A stretch of DNA of 64,000 bases, from assembly GCA_018622675.1 (NCBI GenBank), contig CP076020.1, forward strand, positions 682,001-746,000, given 5' to 3'. The notes under the pieces are model-generated. The model did no database searches and was not told the DNA's origin. It saw only the letters and a list, made by a program, of their open reading frames with translations. The translations under genes were made by a program, and so were the position numbers. This DNA comes from Mycoplasmatota bacterium. Its GTDB lineage: Bacteria; Bacillota_I; Bacilli_A; Izemoplasmatales; Hujiaoplasmataceae. Positions 55,735-64,000 of this stretch are shown here, one piece after another (position 1 is the first letter of the stretch; the number at the start of each line of letters is the position of its first letter).

Positions 55735-56913
55735 ATGAAATTTAAACGAGTATTTTTAATTGTTATTGATTCAGTTGGCGTTGGTGAAATGCCTGATGCT
55801 AAAAAATTTGGAGATGAGGGCGCTAATACGATTGGTAATTTAGCAAAAGCAACTGGTGGCGTTCATTTACCTATTCTTGAGTCATTTGGATATGGAAATT
55901 TAACTGATATTTTAGGTGTATCACCTGTTGATCAACCTAAGGCGAACACAACAAAAATGGCTGAGATTTCTAATGGAAAAGATACTATGACAGGTCATTG
56001 GGAAATTATGGGTATCAAAACAGTCAAACCATTTAAAACATTCACAGACACTGGATTTCCTAAGGAATTAATTGATAAAATAGAAGAATTGTCAGGTCGT
56101 AAGGTTATTGGTAATATTGCAGCGTCAGGAACTGAGATTATAAAAGATTTAGGGCCTGAACAAGAAGATACTGGAGCTTTAATTGTATATACAAGTGCTG
56201 ATAGCGTTTTACAAATCGCTGCGCATGAAGAAGTTGTTCCATTAGATGAACTTTATGATATATGCGAAAAAGTAAGAGAATTAACCTTAGATGAAAAATG
56301 GCGTGTTGGTAGAATTATTGCTAGACCATACCTTGGAAATAGAGAAGATGGTTATAAACGCACAACTAATAGACATGATTATGCTTTATCACCAAGTTCA
56401 AAAACTGTCCTAAATGTATTAGAAGAAAATAATCTTGATGTTATTTCAGTTGGGAAAATTAAAGATATCTTTAATGGTTCTGGTATTACTGATCATTATG
56501 GTATTAAATCAAATCATGATGGTATGGAAAAAGTGATGATGTTAGTGGATAAAGACTTTACTGGTTTGAATTTTACTAATTTGGTTGACTTTGATGCTTT
56601 ATATGGACATAGAAGAGATTCACAAGGCTATAAAGAAGCAATGGAGGAGTTTGATACTGATCTAGGTCATCTTATTCAAAAGCTCTCAGATGACGATTTA
56701 TTAATCGTTACAGCTGACCACGGAAATGATCCAACACATGATGGTACAGATCATACTCGAGAATATGTTCCATTATTTATGTATAATCATAAATTAAAAG
56801 GAAAATTCTTGCCTACAAGTGATACATTTGCAGATATAGGTGAAACTATAGCTGATAATTTTGGCTTAAAGGGAACTGATATTGGTAAAAGCCTGTTAGG
56901 TGAACTAGAATAA
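55735..56913 (+). CDS. deoB: Phosphopentomutase
   Basis: A 392-residue alkaline-phosphatase-superfamily enzyme. The N-terminal metal ligand is in LIVIDSVGVGEMPDA, followed by the phosphothreonine loop DTMTGHWEIMG. The C-terminal metal ligands are in TADHGNDPTHDGTDHTREYVP. It interconverts (deoxy)ribose-1- and 5-phosphate in nucleoside catabolism. It fits with cdd and apt, also in the window, as nucleoside salvage. AAAGAGGT precedes the ATG, two bases after xerD. Confidence 0.96.
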   Translation: MKFKRVFLIVIDSVGVGEMPDAKKFGDEGANTIGNLAKATGGVHLPILESFGYGNLTDILGVSPVDQPKANTTKMAEISNGKDTMTGHWEIMGIKTVKPFKTFTDTGFPKELIDKIEELSGRKVIGNIAASGTEIIKDLGPEQEDTGALIVYTSADSVLQIAAHEEVVPLDELYDICEKVRELTLDEKWRVGRIIARPYLGNREDGYKRTTNRHDYALSPSSKTVLNVLEENNLDVISVGKIKDIFNGSGITDHYGIKSNHDGMEKVMMLVDKDFTGLNFTNLVDFDALYGHRRDSQGYKEAMEEFDTDLGHLIQKLSDDDLLIVTADHGNDPTHDGTDHTREYVPLFMYNHKLKGKFLPTSDTFADIGETIADNFGLKGTDIGKSLLGELE

Positions 56914-56920
56914 TTATATT

Positions 56921-56957
56921 AAAGTAGCTCTCATATGATATGAGAGCTACTTTTTAG
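56921..56957. terminator. Bidirectional terminator between deoB and the coiled-coil operon
   Basis: A 15-bp perfect stem, AAAGTAGCTCTCATA (56921-56935) with TATGAGAGCTACTTT (56939-56953) around TGA. It is flanked by TTTTTAG on the right and an AT-rich tract on the left. It is the longest stem in the window. Confidence 0.85.
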
Positions 56958-59714
56958 TTAAAATATATCAAAGTGTTTTTTTTCTTTCTTTAAAAGTTTG
57001 TGTTTTCTTCTCTTTTCTTTTTTGTGTAATCTAAGCGTGTGATGAATCACTTTTTTAATATTAGGTGTTTTCTTAGAATACTTAATATAATCACCAAATG
57101 AATCAACTAATTGTGAATAATCATTTTGTAATTCATCATAAAATTGTGAGTTTAACTCAATATTAGATAAATATGTTTCTAATAATTTGTTCAGTGTTTC
57201 TTTATTTTTTTTGTTTGTCTTTTTAATAAATTCATTAAAAACAGTATCACTATGATTAATCTCATTAATTTTATTTTTTATGATAGAATTTTTTTCTGAA
57301 ATAACATTATTTTTTAATGCTTCATAGTCAACTTGAATATGTCTAATTTGGTTATTTAAACTATCAATTGTCATGAAATATTTTTCATTAATATTAGATA
57401 GCTGATGATGATAAGTATTTTTTATCTCTTCCTTATCCTTTTGATATGCATCTAAAAGTTTAACAATTTCAGATGAATTAACCTCGTATTTTAATTTAAA
57501 ATATAGTGTCTTATAATTTTCTAATAAATGACCAATTTTAGTATCCAATGTAATTTCAGCATATTTTAATTTTTCGTGAAGTCTCTTTTTGCTTTTTTGT
57601 AAACTTTCGTATAGAAAATCGTCTAAAGGATGTGCAGACTTATCAACACTATCAATAAATTCTTGATATTTTGCTTGTGAATAACGGTATATTTCATCCA
57701 TTTCTCGTATAGTTTCATCATGGATTTCACTTGCTGCATGATAAGAATCTTCTAAGTACATATCAAGTTCATCTAAACGTTTTTGGTAAAGTTGTATTTT
57801 TTCGTTATTTCTGTATTTAGAAATAATATGATTAATTTCTTGATGATAAGAATTTTTTACTATCTTAAGTTCTTTCTCTAATTTTTTAATCAAAGAAAGA
57901 TCATTTGTGTTTTCGATTGCATGAATGATATCATAAACATCTTTTTGGTATTTAAAGAAATTATGATTGGATGCATCTTCTTTAAGCTTGACTTCATGAG
58001 TTATCATATCATAAAAATGTATACGCTCATTATCAATATTATGAACTATGCTAGTGAGTCGCATTTTTAAGTCATCATCAGCTAATTTAATTTGTTCCTT
58101 TGCGAATCTCATTTGATTTAAGTATGTTTCTGAAATCAATTTATAATTTATCTCAGTTTCAGATTCAATACGTTTTTGCTGGATTAACAACATTCTTTTT
58201 TCATGTTCAAATAAAGTTTTGTAGTGAAGTGTTTCTACTTCACTCTCTTTTAACGCCAGTCTAATATCAGAAGAAGCATTGATAATTTCTGTGTCTATGT
58301 CGGATTTTTTATAAACATTTTGATTAAGTTGATTTGAAAATTCCGATAAAAATTTTCTGTTTAAATTTTCGATTTTACTATGATAATCAACATATTCATT
58401 AATCAATTCATTTAAAAATACAATATATTGTTTGTCACGCTTTAAAACCACTTTTGCTGAATCGATCTGAGCTTGACTGTCTAGTAAATATGAGTGGATA
58501 TCTTTAATGATATTTAAAACATCAAGTTCTTGACTCGCAAACTTTGATTCAATAAAATGGACTAATTGATACTCATATGTTTTAATTTGATGATTTAATT
58601 GTACTAGTTTATAGGTAAAGTAAATATGATACTTAAGAGCCTTATTCATCTTATAAAGACGTGTGAATTCAATTTCCTTATGAATAATGCTAGCGCCTTT
58701 GTCTGAGTATAGTTGAGCTAAAAACGGATCAGTTTTATATAGATTCAAATAAAGTTTCAAACTCTTATCTAAAGTTAATAAAGCATTTAAATTATTTTCT
58801 TTAAATTGAAATAAAATATTTTTCTTGTCTCTAATAAGGGTTTTGATTTTCTTGTGAGCATATTTTTCTGCTTTAGATTGATTATGATTAAGTTTATATT
58901 TTCTGTGGTATAAATCATTGTATTTAGTTTCTATTTCCTCAATTAATTGGTTTTTTAAACGATTTTCTTGGTGAAGTAAAAATTCAGAATATTGATTATA
59001 TTGTCTTTCTTTTTCATGAGTCATCTTTTGGATTTCACTTGAATAAGGATCTTCGTTAGTGGAAAAATTAATTTGGCTTTCAATTAAATTTTTAATCTCA
59101 ATATCAAAAAATTCATCTAAAATATCTTCTTTATGACTTTTAGTAGATATGAGATTTTTTATTGTTTCATCTATATCTGAAATCTTATGATCTATGTTAT
59201 TAAATTCATCAGTTATTTCTTTAAAATGTTTCTCAATTACATAATTCATGGTTTGATTCTTGTTCTTTAAATAGCTATTATTGTCATTGATAATATCAAT
59301 AGTTGAATCAAAGAAGAACTTATAAGTTTTATAATAATCTAAGTTCTCATTTATCAGTTGGTTGTGTAAGTAGTCTATAGAAAAGACTCGATCTTTGATT
59401 TTATCGCTTTCAAAGTTTAAGATACTTACGTTATTTTTGTGAATATCAACCAAAGCATTTCTGATTACTTTTTGTTTTTGAATAATCATATCTTCATCAT
59501 GATTGATTATTTTATCTGTCATTTGCTTGGTTTTTTGTCTTATTGAATTTAGAGATTCATGAATACTATTTAAATTATTTATTGTGATTTGTCGATTTGA
59601 ATGGATTGTTTCTTCAATGTTATGATGGAAATTTGCGAAAAAAGATAACTCATCTTGTGATGATTTATCATATTTTTCTTTATAATTCTTGGTATTATAG
59701 TTATCTTTATCCAT
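56958..59714 (-). CDS. Giant coiled-coil protein B, unknown function
   Basis: A 918-residue protein, not recognised. Almost the whole length is predicted alpha-helical coiled coil: heptad-like spacing of I/L/Y with E/K/N/Q between, only about four prolines, and no tryptophan or cysteine. There is no Walker A, transmembrane segment or signal peptide. Two similar blocks, KNSYHQEINHI...KY and KNTYHHQLSNI...KY, suggest internal repetition. The last 30 residues are extremely basic (RLHKKEKRRKHKLLKKEKK), a possible nucleic-acid or membrane contact. GAGGTGG precedes the ATG. It is 22 bases downstream of its larger partner. Confidence 0.85.
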   Translation of the reverse strand: MDKDNYNTKNYKEKYDKSSQDELSFFANFHHNIEETIHSNRQITINNLNSIHESLNSIRQKTKQMTDKIINHDEDMIIQKQKVIRNALVDIHKNNVSILNFESDKIKDRVFSIDYLHNQLINENLDYYKTYKFFFDSTIDIINDNNSYLKNKNQTMNYVIEKHFKEITDEFNNIDHKISDIDETIKNLISTKSHKEDILDEFFDIEIKNLIESQINFSTNEDPYSSEIQKMTHEKERQYNQYSEFLLHQENRLKNQLIEEIETKYNDLYHRKYKLNHNQSKAEKYAHKKIKTLIRDKKNILFQFKENNLNALLTLDKSLKLYLNLYKTDPFLAQLYSDKGASIIHKEIEFTRLYKMNKALKYHIYFTYKLVQLNHQIKTYEYQLVHFIESKFASQELDVLNIIKDIHSYLLDSQAQIDSAKVVLKRDKQYIVFLNELINEYVDYHSKIENLNRKFLSEFSNQLNQNVYKKSDIDTEIINASSDIRLALKESEVETLHYKTLFEHEKRMLLIQQKRIESETEINYKLISETYLNQMRFAKEQIKLADDDLKMRLTSIVHNIDNERIHFYDMITHEVKLKEDASNHNFFKYQKDVYDIIHAIENTNDLSLIKKLEKELKIVKNSYHQEINHIISKYRNNEKIQLYQKRLDELDMYLEDSYHAASEIHDETIREMDEIYRYSQAKYQEFIDSVDKSAHPLDDFLYESLQKSKKRLHEKLKYAEITLDTKIGHLLENYKTLYFKLKYEVNSSEIVKLLDAYQKDKEEIKNTYHHQLSNINEKYFMTIDSLNNQIRHIQVDYEALKNNVISEKNSIIKNKINEINHSDTVFNEFIKKTNKKNKETLNKLLETYLSNIELNSQFYDELQNDYSQLVDSFGDYIKYSKKTPNIKKVIHHTLRLHKKEKRRKHKLLKKEKKHFDIF

Positions 59715-59736
59715 TAAATCACCACCTCTTATCATA

Positions 59737-62700
59737 TTAAGAATTAATAATCCTACTTTGTTTTTTTTCAGAACTTAGTTTTTCTTCGTGTAATTCATTA
59801 ATTTTTGTTTGTGTTTTATTAGACGTTTCTTTATGAATTGTTTTTGTGATATCAATCATGGATGATTGCGTGTTTAACAAATCATTCAATGGTTGATTAA
59901 GTCCGAGATCAAAACTTAAAGATGAAGGTATCTTATTGTTACGAAAAGCTCTATGGTGATCTGTAAAATCTTTGTTAAAATGTATATATTGATTTAAATA
60001 TTCATCTTCTAATTTTTTATGTTTATTATATAAAACATTGAAATCTTCAGAAATTTTTTCTTCTCGAATTTTTATTTTTTTCTCTAGAATAGGTGTTTTG
60101 ATAAACTTATCCTTTTCTATTTTGGCATATTTTTGCACTAATATATCATAGTGTCTATTAAATGCTTTCTGATTATCAACTTCAACCGAAGATAATCTAG
60201 TTTGTTTTTCAGCAGGTAAGACATCTAATTGTTTTAATAACTGTTGACGTGTTTGTTGTAATTGCGTTTTATGTTCATCCATCATATAGTTATTATATTG
60301 GATTTCTACATTTGCATCGAAGTTAATTTTATCAATTTGCTTTTGAATGATCTTTTTCGTTATTTTGTAGTCATCTAACAATAATTTATAATCATCAACT
60401 ATTGAATGATCAATATTTTTTAACAATTTAGGTAATTTTTTATCATTATAAGTGATCATTTTTATGATTTCTTTTTCTAAATATTTAAAAAGTTTTGTGT
60501 ATTGTTTGTTTTTAAGTAAAAATTGATTATTCTTTTTAATAACTTTTGAAGTAAAATAATCATTCATATCAGTAGTATACTTATTAATTAATCTCTTTTG
60601 ATATTTTATTTTATTTTTTAGTCTAAGTGATTTATTTTTTAAAAGTTTGTATTCATAGTTTATATATGTTTTATGATTTCTAATATTAACTTGTACGATT
60701 GCGAGTTGCTTAGCTAAAGTATTAAGTGTCAATGCAAAAGTGCTTTGTACCATTTTATCCATATATAAATATGCTTTTTCAAGTTTTTCTATGGTGTATA
60801 TTAGGTATTCTTTAAGTGCTTTATTAACTTTCTTTTGTTTTTTATAATGGTCAATTTTATCGTATATCCTAGTAAAATTCTCAGTAAACTCAATGATAAA
60901 ATCATCATAATAATTATTTAATTGATTAATTTTTGAATGAGCTGAGTTCTGATATAGGTAATTTAATAACTCATAATATACAATGGTGAACGTATGCATA
61001 GTATGGATGAATTTATTTTTTTCTAAAACTCGTTTTACTGGAATACCATTATTAAATTCTAACCTATTAAGTAAATATTTATAATGATCTTTGAGTGAGT
61101 TAATATGGTCTTCAGTAGATTTAATTAATTGTTTTTGTTTTAAGTATGAACGTTTAACTTCACGATTAATAGAAGAGGTTTTCTTATTTTCTACAAATTG
61201 TATTTGTGATAATAATTTGTCTTCAGATTCTTTAAAGTAATTCTCAAGCGAAAAATATTGATCTTTTTCACTTAAAAGTGAAGCTATATATTTAGAGTTT
61301 TTATGATTAGCTTTAATAAATTTTTGCATTTTTTTAATAAAAGAAACGAGATTGAATTCTTCATTCTTTAGAGAATTAGTTTTATTATCTTTAATCAAAA
61401 AATAATTTTTGGCTAATTGATAATTAACAGCTTTTGTTGATTGTGTTAATTTTTCTTTCATAATCTTCATAAATATTTCAGATAATGTCGTTTGATAATT
61501 ATAAAAATTGTCTGTTTGACTTGAAAGATTATAATAAATTTCACGATGTGATTCAGACTCAATTTCTATCAATTTATCATTATAATTTCTATGAATATCA
61601 ACTAAGTCTAACTCATGATTTAAGTCTGTAGAAGTTTTATAAATCTCTAGCAACTTGTCTTTATACAATTTATGAATATTAATTTTCTTTAATCTGTTCT
61701 TGTACTGGTTATTTGCTATTTCATAATCAGTATTTAAAGACTCAAGAAATTTAAGATAATCACCTTTAATATCAACATTAACCATTTCTTTTTTTATTTC
61801 GGCGATTTTTAATCTATAATTAGATTCTAATGTTGTAATTTTAAAGGCTACTTCATCGATATTAAATAACAAATCTGATAATTTTTCTGAGACTTGAGTT
61901 ATTTTAGCTAATAAGTTATTTTGATAATCAGAAAACTCTTTTTTATTTGATAGTAATTCTTGATCTCGTATGTCATTGAATTTTTGTGAAAAAGATATTA
62001 ATTCAGTTAAAAGCTTATCTAAATCATTAAAACCTTGATTAAAATAGAAGTTGTAATTAGAGTAAATATTAATTGAATTTTCAATAAACTTCATTGGAAC
62101 TGAATATGTGTATTTAATTTCTTCATTTCTGGTAAAAGCTTCAACTTTAATTTCTTTAATTCTTTTTTGGTAGGTTGAAATATTATAGTTAGTTATTTTT
62201 TCGATTTTTGTATTTAAAAAATCAGCTTTTTTTTCTAAAGCTTCTGTTTGTAGTATATATTTCTCAATGAGATCATTGTTTCTTTCTTTTTCTGCTTTTA
62301 TAATTAATGGATAAATTTTATCCTTTGATTCTTGCAAGTCTTTTTTTATTATATTTTGATATTTAATCTTATTATCATTGGCTATTCTGATTTGTCTTAC
62401 AAGTTTTTGTATGAGTTTTTGATTGATATCTGTATAAGGTCTTTGTTTTGATTTTCTGATTTTGTATATTTCATCTTTATAATCTTGTAAAAGAGAAGAA
62501 GTATCTTTGAACATGACGTTAATATCATTTCTAGTCCCTCTCATTTCTGAAAGTGATTTTATAATATTCTTATTCAAGGATATTAAATCATTTTTATCAA
62601 TTTGGTTAATGTCGTTTTCTAATTGATTTATTGAATTCTTAGACTTTTCAATGGTCCACATTAATTTGTTATTAAGCTTTGCATTTAATTCATCATAATT

Positions 62701-63183
62701 TTCTTTAAATTTATTTAGCTTTTTTTGTTCTTTCTTGATAAAGTCAGCATGTACACTCATGTCTTTATCGATTAAATCATTGTTTTCTTTTGTAAGTTTT
62801 AAATATATTTCAAAAGCATCATGCTTTCTCATTTCAAATTGTTCGAGAATATCCTCATAAATTAAGTGCTCATTTTCTGCTTTCTCATCCAAAACTTTTA
62901 GTTGTCTATATACATCTTCGTTAAATTCATTATTGATATTTTGATAGGTCATTCTTATGAAATTAATTTTTTCAAGATAATTTCTATGAAGTGAAGAGAA
63001 ATGATTGTATGAAATATCTTGATTTTTATGAAGTTCTTCTATTAGTTTCGTTGTTTTTTTATTATAATCATCTTTTACATTAGAAAAAGACCGTTTAAGT
63101 TCATTTAAACGATTATTTGACTGAGATTCAAAATTGGGATATTCTTTAATATATTTTAATAAAATATCGCCTGTATTTGCCAT
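59737..63183 (-). CDS. Giant coiled-coil protein A, unknown function
   Basis: A 1148-residue protein, not recognised. It is low in proline (about ten), has a single tryptophan (W176), no cysteine and no ATPase motif. Long helical heptad-like stretches run nearly end to end. A repeat of about 27-31 residues is visible as VDIKGDYLKFLESL (470), INIHKLYKDKLLEI (501) and VDIHRNYNDKLIEI (528). The C-terminal ~60 residues are less coiled (NNKIPSSLSFDLGLNQPLNDLL). AAGGAGAG precedes the ATG. It is the first gene of the operon with coiled-coil protein B and is divergent from ruvB. A cytoskeletal or scaffold role is a guess. Confidence 0.85.
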   Translation of the reverse strand: MANTGDILLKYIKEYPNFESQSNNRLNELKRSFSNVKDDYNKKTTKLIEELHKNQDISYNHFSSLHRNYLEKINFIRMTYQNINNEFNEDVYRQLKVLDEKAENEHLIYEDILEQFEMRKHDAFEIYLKLTKENNDLIDKDMSVHADFIKKEQKKLNKFKENYDELNAKLNNKLMWTIEKSKNSINQLENDINQIDKNDLISLNKNIIKSLSEMRGTRNDINVMFKDTSSLLQDYKDEIYKIRKSKQRPYTDINQKLIQKLVRQIRIANDNKIKYQNIIKKDLQESKDKIYPLIIKAEKERNNDLIEKYILQTEALEKKADFLNTKIEKITNYNISTYQKRIKEIKVEAFTRNEEIKYTYSVPMKFIENSINIYSNYNFYFNQGFNDLDKLLTELISFSQKFNDIRDQELLSNKKEFSDYQNNLLAKITQVSEKLSDLLFNIDEVAFKITTLESNYRLKIAEIKKEMVNVDIKGDYLKFLESLNTDYEIANNQYKNRLKKINIHKLYKDKLLEIYKTSTDLNHELDLVDIHRNYNDKLIEIESESHREIYYNLSSQTDNFYNYQTTLSEIFMKIMKEKLTQSTKAVNYQLAKNYFLIKDNKTNSLKNEEFNLVSFIKKMQKFIKANHKNSKYIASLLSEKDQYFSLENYFKESEDKLLSQIQFVENKKTSSINREVKRSYLKQKQLIKSTEDHINSLKDHYKYLLNRLEFNNGIPVKRVLEKNKFIHTMHTFTIVYYELLNYLYQNSAHSKINQLNNYYDDFIIEFTENFTRIYDKIDHYKKQKKVNKALKEYLIYTIEKLEKAYLYMDKMVQSTFALTLNTLAKQLAIVQVNIRNHKTYINYEYKLLKNKSLRLKNKIKYQKRLINKYTTDMNDYFTSKVIKKNNQFLLKNKQYTKLFKYLEKEIIKMITYNDKKLPKLLKNIDHSIVDDYKLLLDDYKITKKIIQKQIDKINFDANVEIQYNNYMMDEHKTQLQQTRQQLLKQLDVLPAEKQTRLSSVEVDNQKAFNRHYDILVQKYAKIEKDKFIKTPILEKKIKIREEKISEDFNVLYNKHKKLEDEYLNQYIHFNKDFTDHHRAFRNNKIPSSLSFDLGLNQPLNDLLNTQSSMIDITKTIHKETSNKTQTKINELHEEKLSSEKKQSRIINS

Positions 63184-63213
63184 TTAACTCTCCTTATGGA
63201 CTTATATATTCTA

Positions 63214-63242
63214 ATTATAATATAAAGATAGGTATTAATCAA
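63214..63242 (-). promoter_or_regulatory. SigA promoter of the coiled-coil operon
   Basis: On the minus strand TTGATT (63242-63237) and TATAAT (63219-63214) are separated by exactly 17 bases, about 30 bases before the start codon of protein A. Confidence 0.75.
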
Positions 63243-63289: not shown

Positions 63290-63304
63290 ATTAGAGAGGT
63301 GTTT

Positions 63305-64000
63305 ATGGATAAAAGAATAATTACAAGTGACCTTCTTGTTGATGAAGAGATTGATGTCACATTAAGACCACAATATTTTAAAGAATATATAGGGCAAAAA
63401 GATGTTAAAGAAATGATTGAGATAGCTGTTAAAGCAGCAAAAAAAAGAAATGAATCTCTAGATCATGTTCTTCTTTATGGACCTCCCGGACTCGGTAAAA
63501 CGACATTAGCTCAAGTTATAGCAAATGAGATGGATGTAAACATGAAGTTTGTGAGCGGACCAACAGTTGAGAGAACTGGTGATTTAGCTGCGATTTTAAC
63601 ATCTCTTGAACCAGGTGATGTTTTATTTATTGATGAAATTCATCGTTTACCAAAAATAGTTGAGGAAATTTTATATTCTTCTATGGAAGATTATGTTATT
63701 GATATAGTCGTAGGTAAAGATGCCGGAGCAAAATCTATAAGAGTTGATTTATCACCTTTTACTTTAATTGGTGCAACAACACGTTTTGGTGATTTAACAG
63801 GTCCATTAAGAGATCGATTCGGAATCATTCATAAGTTAGAGTTTTATTCTGATGATGAATTGAAAAAGATTTGTAAACGTACTGCAAGTATTTATGAATG
63901 TGAATTTGAAAGTAAGGCCATTGTTGAATTAGCAAAAAGAAGTAGAGGTACTCCAAGAATAGTCAATAGACTCTTTAGACGAGTTAGAGATTTTGCGGAT
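63305..64000 (+). CDS. ruvB: Holliday junction branch migration helicase RuvB, 5' part
   Basis: The first 232 codons are present; the gene runs off the window. RuvB signatures are [17 protein letters not shown], Walker [48 protein letters not shown], and sensor region [20 protein letters not shown]. It pumps DNA through RuvA-bound junctions. GAGAGGTG precedes the ATG. ruvA is not immediately upstream; the coiled-coil operon diverges there instead. Confidence 0.96.

Follow-up and report, generated by a model that had tools for sequence, protein, structure and literature searches.

A conserved pair of giant, predicted all-helical proteins with a straight-helix pitch in the wall-less order Izemoplasmatales

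Two adjoining genes, here called ccA and ccB, lie between deoB and ruvB in the window (the whole stretch of 64,000 nucleotides that was analysed) and form a co-transcribed operon. Their products are predicted to be helical almost from end to end, with one hydrophobic stripe whose period is that of a straight helix, and the pair is kept across the order Izemoplasmatales in place, pairing and length while its sequence changes fast. We tentatively read ccA and ccB as a cytosolic strut or scaffold of fixed length serving wall-less cells, a reading that we offer as possible rather than probable.

The operon and its products

Table 1. Features of the ccA-ccB locus, in positions of the window
Feature	Position	Strand	Remarks
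deoB (phosphopentomutase)	55735-56913	+	conserved downstream flank; ORF list, relatives' loci
bidirectional intrinsic terminator	56921-56953	.	between convergent ccB and deoB; 15-bp hairpin
ccB	56958-59714	-	918 aa, by start-codon choice; all-helical partner of ccA (predicted)
ribosome-binding site of ccB	59718-59728	-	AAGAGGTGGTG region; short gap 3′ of ccA stop
ccA	59737-63183	-	1148 codons/aa; ORF list; upstream gene of pair; all-helical (predicted)
ribosome-binding site of ccA	63188-63193	-	AAGGAG, from sequence; kept in close relatives
sigma-70-type promoter of ccA-ccB operon	63214-63242	-	TTGATT-17-TATAAT; 10 of 12 consensus matches
ruvB (5′ part)	63299-64000	+	conserved divergent flank; RuvB_N E 6.3e-77

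The positions and lengths originally proposed for the two genes agree with the ORF list (Table 1). For ccB the start at 59714 was preferred over a longer ORF of 925 aa because AGAGGTGGTG directly precedes its ATG. The promoter lies directly 5′ of ccA, and 7 relatives in the alignment retain its -10 element and TTGA. It may be noted that promoter-like matches over the region number 45 against 60.9 ± 9.4 by chance, i.e. there is no excess. The terminator hairpin folds with -21 kcal/mol (z = -5.5), and in most relatives an inverted repeat of different sequence is kept at this site. The shared promoter and strong terminator of the original prediction were thus both found, and with them its claim of expression as a pair is supported.

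Residue counts (10 Pro, 1 Trp and 0 Cys in ccA; 4 Pro, 0 Trp and 0 Cys in ccB) confirm the near-absence of these amino acids that had been remarked on earlier, and Lys, Leu, Ile, Asn and Glu are abundant in both proteins. Neither has a membrane helix, as the 19-residue hydropathy peaks at 1.13 in ccA and 0.56 in ccB, and no secretion signature was found in either. The whole ccB protein has a net charge of -4 and is therefore not net basic; its C-terminal tail is basic (net +2 to +20 over the last 60 residues), a feature which the original prediction had named and which is conserved in all 31 sequences examined. This tail is absent from ccA. The best-conserved core of ccB lies at about residues 480-565, with K489, E505, Q512, R515, Q534, F537, Q541 and R552 invariant.

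Distribution, gene order and origin

The source genome is a single contig of 1.65 Mb. With a cross-family profile, ccB was found in 79 of the order's 90 genomes, in 29 of the 33 good ones among them and in 26 of 29 genera. Wherever the locus could be read whole ccA adjoins ccB, with one known exception. The good genomes G017 and G053 match neither ccB nor ruvB, and since the ruvB match is missing too, the region is probably absent from these assemblies. In G055, which has no ccB match, the locus holds one ORF of 702 aa with similarity to part of ccA (E 5e-16). The gene order in families f1 and f3 is lepA-hemN-xerC/D-deoB> <ccB<ccA ruvB>queA, with extra genes occasionally present on the deoB side (e.g. 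loci L043, L050, L053 and L116). The f1 and f3 pairs have almost no pairwise similarity and occupy the same place between deoB and ruvB.

The routine search gave no match at first in the remaining family of the order, f2. The DNA beside ruvB in this family carries two adjoining ORFs of 1108-1129 and 931-971 aa, which abut ruvB directly in G034, while in G036, G038 and G040 hydrogenase-like genes stand between the intact pair and ruvB. As helical proteins match one another too readily, a cross-control was needed in the profile comparison. The first f2 ORF aligned with the ccA profile in register across 974 columns (97.3%), as against 5.1% for ccB; the second aligned with the ccB profile across 683 columns (98.9%), also in register, as against 33.2% and out of register for ccA. 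MukB and other helical controls reached 70% or less. Synteny and this cross-controlled comparison show the f2 ORFs to be the same ccA-ccB pair, which is thus present in each of the order's three families. The original prediction had pointed to conserved pairing and neighbourhood as telling features, and both are strongly evident across the order.

The same comparisons bear on a reading in which the proteins have no special role, being low-complexity helical filler whose likeness is an artefact among unrelated helices. Helical similarity is overrated by profile methods (PMC3695513), and the ccA and ccB profiles reach 95.9% in hhalign at 8% identity; this may reflect paralogy of ccA and ccB, but it is within the generic range of helix similarity. 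Yet place, order and length are equal across the three families, both f2 proteins match their own counterparts specifically and in register where the helical controls do not, and the ccB core has invariant residues. Filler is thus already contradicted, and we consider it very improbable.

Also, the gene order and the basic tail of ccB could be taken to indicate chromosome-architecture proteins, in which the tail binds DNA and the helices bridge or space the nucleoid, maybe in connection with recombination. The tail is conserved and the pair is constantly divergent from ruvB or ruvAB, as such a role would have it. However, the ruvB neighbourhood looks inherited rather than functional, because the pair stays intact in the three f2 genomes where hydrogenase-like genes split it from ruvB; domain scans found no DNA-binding domain or ATPase in ccA or ccB, and ccA lacks the tail. 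We therefore hold a chromosomal role to be unlikely.

The profile was also run on 344 genomes of the phylum drawn evenly, many of them of 0.6-1.3 Mb, and among about 331 genomes outside the order it gave no credible ccB. Matches in G149, G315, G318, G269 and G372 are short helical ones and were rejected on context, and the match in G080 is to an ORF that is the ccA-position gene of another family. In two families, f12 and f16, which presumably belong to the Acholeplasmatales, a single helical ORF of 1178-1237 aa stands divergent and upstream of ruvA-ruvB-queA, in the exact ccA position and with no ccB. The f12 and f16 profiles match at 99.8%. Against ccA, f16 scores 95.2% with 563 columns in register; its score against ccB is 76%, and that alignment is out of register. 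Single f12 or f16 sequences score low. Since ccA against ccB itself scores as high as noted above, these figures are not by themselves proof of homology between the f16 protein and ccA, but on place, direction and length the f12/f16 protein is probably a ccA homologue. In a tree of RuvB and QueA, one clade (support 0.979) takes in f1, f2, f3, f12 and f16, and f7 as well, whose single locus is interrupted by a contig end. What fits best is that a ccA-like gene arose once and that only the Izemoplasmatales gained or retained ccB.

Length, helical pitch and family searches

The length of ccA is 1147-1213 aa, or 1108-1129 aa in f2 (CV under 2%), and that of ccB is about 918-990 aa (CV 1.6-2.4%). 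Length variation is just 0.7-2.4%, the value for f16 being inflated by two contig-cut sequences. Identity between families goes down to 10-15% for both proteins. With dN/dS of 0.14-0.28 (dS near saturation), ccA changes several-fold faster than the neighbouring genes and yet is constrained by purifying selection; a value for ccB against L042 was left out, as it had been computed in a wrong frame. Coiled coils with divergent sequence and constant length serve as spacers (PMC5082667), and in ccA and ccB also the constraint may fall on length and helical pitch rather than on sequence, as in a molecular spacer.

AlphaFold models of the monomers, made with 14-16 homologues per protein, are an almost unbroken helix for ccA (pLDDT 74.6) and ccB (pLDDT 76.2), with low pTM for both (0.31-0.38). 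On spectral analysis ccA has a hydrophobic stripe of period 3.62 in every family, and so has the f16 protein; the peaks of full-length ccA lie at 3.616-3.652, mostly near 3.625, and the ccB peak is broader (3.54-3.72) and also centred near 3.62. Power at 3.5 is near 1-2. The same code puts the peak of MukB arms and of synthetic heptads at 3.45-3.5, with 3.49 for the MukB arms. The number of residues per turn is 3.63 in a straight alpha-helix as against 3.5 in a heptad coiled coil (PMC4786415); since the observed 3.62 is close to the former and not to the latter, the helices are predicted to be straight and not supercoiled. The stripe stays in phase along the whole of ccA (power 25, with no more than 9.3 in ten further long ORFs from the window), and the f1 and f3 members of ccA have a coherent full-length stripe at 3.60-3.65 with power 19-55. 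Pitch alone is not specific, since values of 3.61-3.67 were also obtained for three long helical ORFs of families elsewhere in the class. A myosin-type long-period charge repeat was looked for and none was found. The classical left-handed heptad coiled coil is rejected on the peak at 3.62 and the little power at 3.5. The proteins had originally been described as nearly continuous coiled coil; this stands in so far as nearly all of their length is predicted helix and the predictions do give a long helical assembly, but it fails in the heptad sense.

A hendecad (11/3, 3.667) or class-A apolipoprotein-like repeat was likewise rejected, as ccA peaks at about 3.625 and its Lys and Arg do not flank the hydrophobic face but are spread across the polar one. 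This bears on a further reading, that of an amphipathic coat lining the membrane, with the stripe lying on its inner face as in apolipoprotein or perilipin helices. One continuous hydrophobic face with no transmembrane helix would suit such a coat, as would cells without a wall, and ccA 111-229 matches the apolipoprotein A-I profile (E 3e-4). But this match is one weak stretch, the Lys/Arg distribution departs from the class-A lipid-binding pattern, ccB is not net basic and the period is not 11/3, which makes a membrane coat quite unlikely in our estimate.

Searches of Pfam, NCBIfam and PDB sequences gave nothing above cut-off for ccA or ccB, and PHROGs and PADLOC gave 0 matches each, so that no anti-phage or phage structural family was matched. 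Among 51 members scanned no SMC, AAA or ABC domain was present, and Foldseek against the PDB returned generic SMC and axoneme helices only (TM about 0.1). Identity with SMC, MukB or RecN is ruled out, as there is no ABC-type ATPase head, the models are all helix and MukB misses the ccA and ccB profiles. In these respects the original prediction holds well: it had excluded those three proteins and any ATPase, membrane or secretion motif, on which the domain scans and hydropathy agree, and it had taken the pair as being of no annotated function, for which a profile search placing it in a family with a defined role would have been the counter-evidence. No such family was returned, and ccA and ccB appear to belong to no curated family or solved structure among those searched.

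A possible role in wall-less cells

The lineage had earlier been supposed wall-less, and this stands. A search for penicillin-binding transpeptidases found none among 30 good relatives, whereas 10 of 14 control genomes have one, and the cultured relative zrk13 (Xianfuyuplasma coldseepsis) is coccoid, 300-800 nm and without a wall (PMC8397711); no organelle was reported for it. True MreB (E below 1e-100) is present in only 10 of 61 relatives. In the source genome a weak MreB match falls in a 607-aa ORF that we read as DnaK, leaving no convincing MreB there. A strict substitution of MreB or wall genes by ccA-ccB is rejected, as those 10 relatives within the order have MreB too.

For the strut or scaffold, the two proteins would be soluble, giant, structural and alpha-helical. 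Packed through the one hydrophobic stripe, both with their own kind and with the partner, their long straight helices would build a rod, strut or lattice whose dimensions are fixed and which would support or space something inside the wall-less cell. Taking 0.15 nm per residue, ccA would reach ~172 nm and ccB ~138 nm as one fully extended helix, a sizeable fraction of a cell of 300-800 nm. Counting against the strut are the co-occurrence with MreB, the low pTM of the monomer models, the coccoid shape of zrk13 with no organelle reported, the occurrence of this pitch in other long helical ORFs of the class and the missing myosin-type charge repeat.

The genes past ruvB suggest another possibility, a cell-division scaffold, i.e. 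a spacer that acts with FtsZ to place or brace the division site of a cell that has no wall to drive constriction. The ftsZ gene lies ~5 genes past ruvB in f1 and f2. The f3 loci read showed no ftsZ close to the pair, so the link is inconstant, and we know of no FtsZ-binding motif in ccA or ccB. We regard a division scaffold as distinctly unlikely.

The strut or scaffold has known counterparts in kind. In the wall-less Mycoplasma pneumoniae, HMW2 has been proven to act as a helical ruler ~190 nm long (PMC8191905). By description ccA and ccB resemble it in being giant, mostly helical, soluble and from a wall-less host, and length, which matters in HMW2, is conserved in them. However, HMW2 is a single ~200-kDa protein and belongs to a terminal organelle that carries adhesins, whereas ccA and ccB are two genes with no sequence link to it found and no known organelle, and their order includes environmental and free-living bacteria; neither the ccB profile over the phylum genomes nor Pfam and NCBIfam showed homology with Mycoplasma cytadherence proteins. 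The spacer coiled coils of golgins, spindle-pole bodies and kinetochores also diverge fast in sequence and hold their length (PMC5082667), but they are mostly eukaryotic heptads with end domains, and in ccA and ccB the period is 3.62 and no end domain is recognisable. SMC and MukB arms share very long helices and are the top Foldseek matches, unlike ccA and ccB in having ATPase heads and a hinge and in their pitch (3.49 in MukB arms), apart from the low TM. Spectrin-like EzrA, crescentin and FilP are helical cytosolic proteins of cell shape or division. The N-terminal transmembrane anchor of EzrA is lacking in ccA and ccB, as their hydropathy maxima indicate, and from all three they differ in not being heptad and in matching no curated family. 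The two proteins would work like known long helical scaffolds but fail the tested features of SMC, heptad coiled coils, class-A repeats and EzrA. That they represent a new class of skeletal element seems doubtful to us at present; this would be a two-part, length-fixed strut or cortex of non-supercoiled, straight-pitch helices over 900-1200 residues, derived from one ancestral ccA-like gene beside ruvAB in the ancestor of the order and its neighbouring families.

The pair bears on the question of how wall-less bacteria beyond the mycoplasmas keep their shape, divide and resist stress. Nearly all of the order retains it, down to genomes of ~1 Mb without transpeptidases and mostly without MreB, and its role is testable because at least one relative is in culture. 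Also, ccA and ccB are a clear case of conserved length and pitch without conserved sequence, which ordinary family searches miss; f2 and the two neighbouring families f12 and f16 were found mainly by means of gene order.

A single helical protein upstream of ruvAB

In the neighbouring families f12 and f16, one helical protein of 1178-1237 aa was found upstream of ruvAB in divergent orientation. Its sequence evolves fast, and its hydrophobic period of 3.61-3.63 residues is as in ccA, the larger of the paired giant helical proteins; no ccB accompanies it. It is probably a ccA homologue. ccA itself (59737-63183 in the window) gave a weak match to apolipoprotein A-I at residues ~111-229 (profile E 3e-4), which may perhaps merely reflect the long amphipathic helices of both proteins.

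Departures from the pair and other helical ORFs

A lone ccA-like ORF lies between deoB and ruvB in G055 in place of the pair; a ccB match was also absent in its genus-mate G338, whose genome is just 51% complete. In the congener G001, ccB is whole and ccA is interrupted by stop codons, which leave two ORFs (95 and 477 aa); either assembly error or decay could account for the breakage. A helical ORF was also seen upstream of ruvA-ruvB-queA-tgt-ftsZ in G046, a contaminated MAG whose contig 43 was placed next to family f2 by RuvB/QueA. Another, in G116 (family f9), is away from ruvB; its hydrophobic stripe repeats every 3.62 residues with extremely high coherence (power 34.5).

Coordinates of helical ORFs, by locus, and genomes with mreB-like triplets
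Feature	Locus	Coordinates	Genome
f12/f16 helical ORF	L160	5387-9004	
f12/f16 helical ORF	L194	9008-12619	
f12/f16 helical ORF	L195	7981-11616	
f12/f16 helical ORF	L196	8790-12326	
f12/f16 helical ORFs	L179-L187		
702-aa ccA-like ORF	L158	1680-3788	G055
Broken ccA	L045	8759-12152	G001
609-aa helical ORF	L159	11965-13794	G046 contig 43
639-aa helical ORF	L166	4989-6908	G116
Tandem mreB-like triplets			G035, G037, G039, G041, G045, G050, G059

ruvA position and mreB-like genes

At most loci of the window's order, ruvB has no adjoining ruvA (window ruvB at 63299); the two genes adjoin in the majority of the class's other families (loci of other orders, L138-L154). Several genomes of family f3 carry three mreB-like genes in tandem and lack penicillin-binding transpeptidases.
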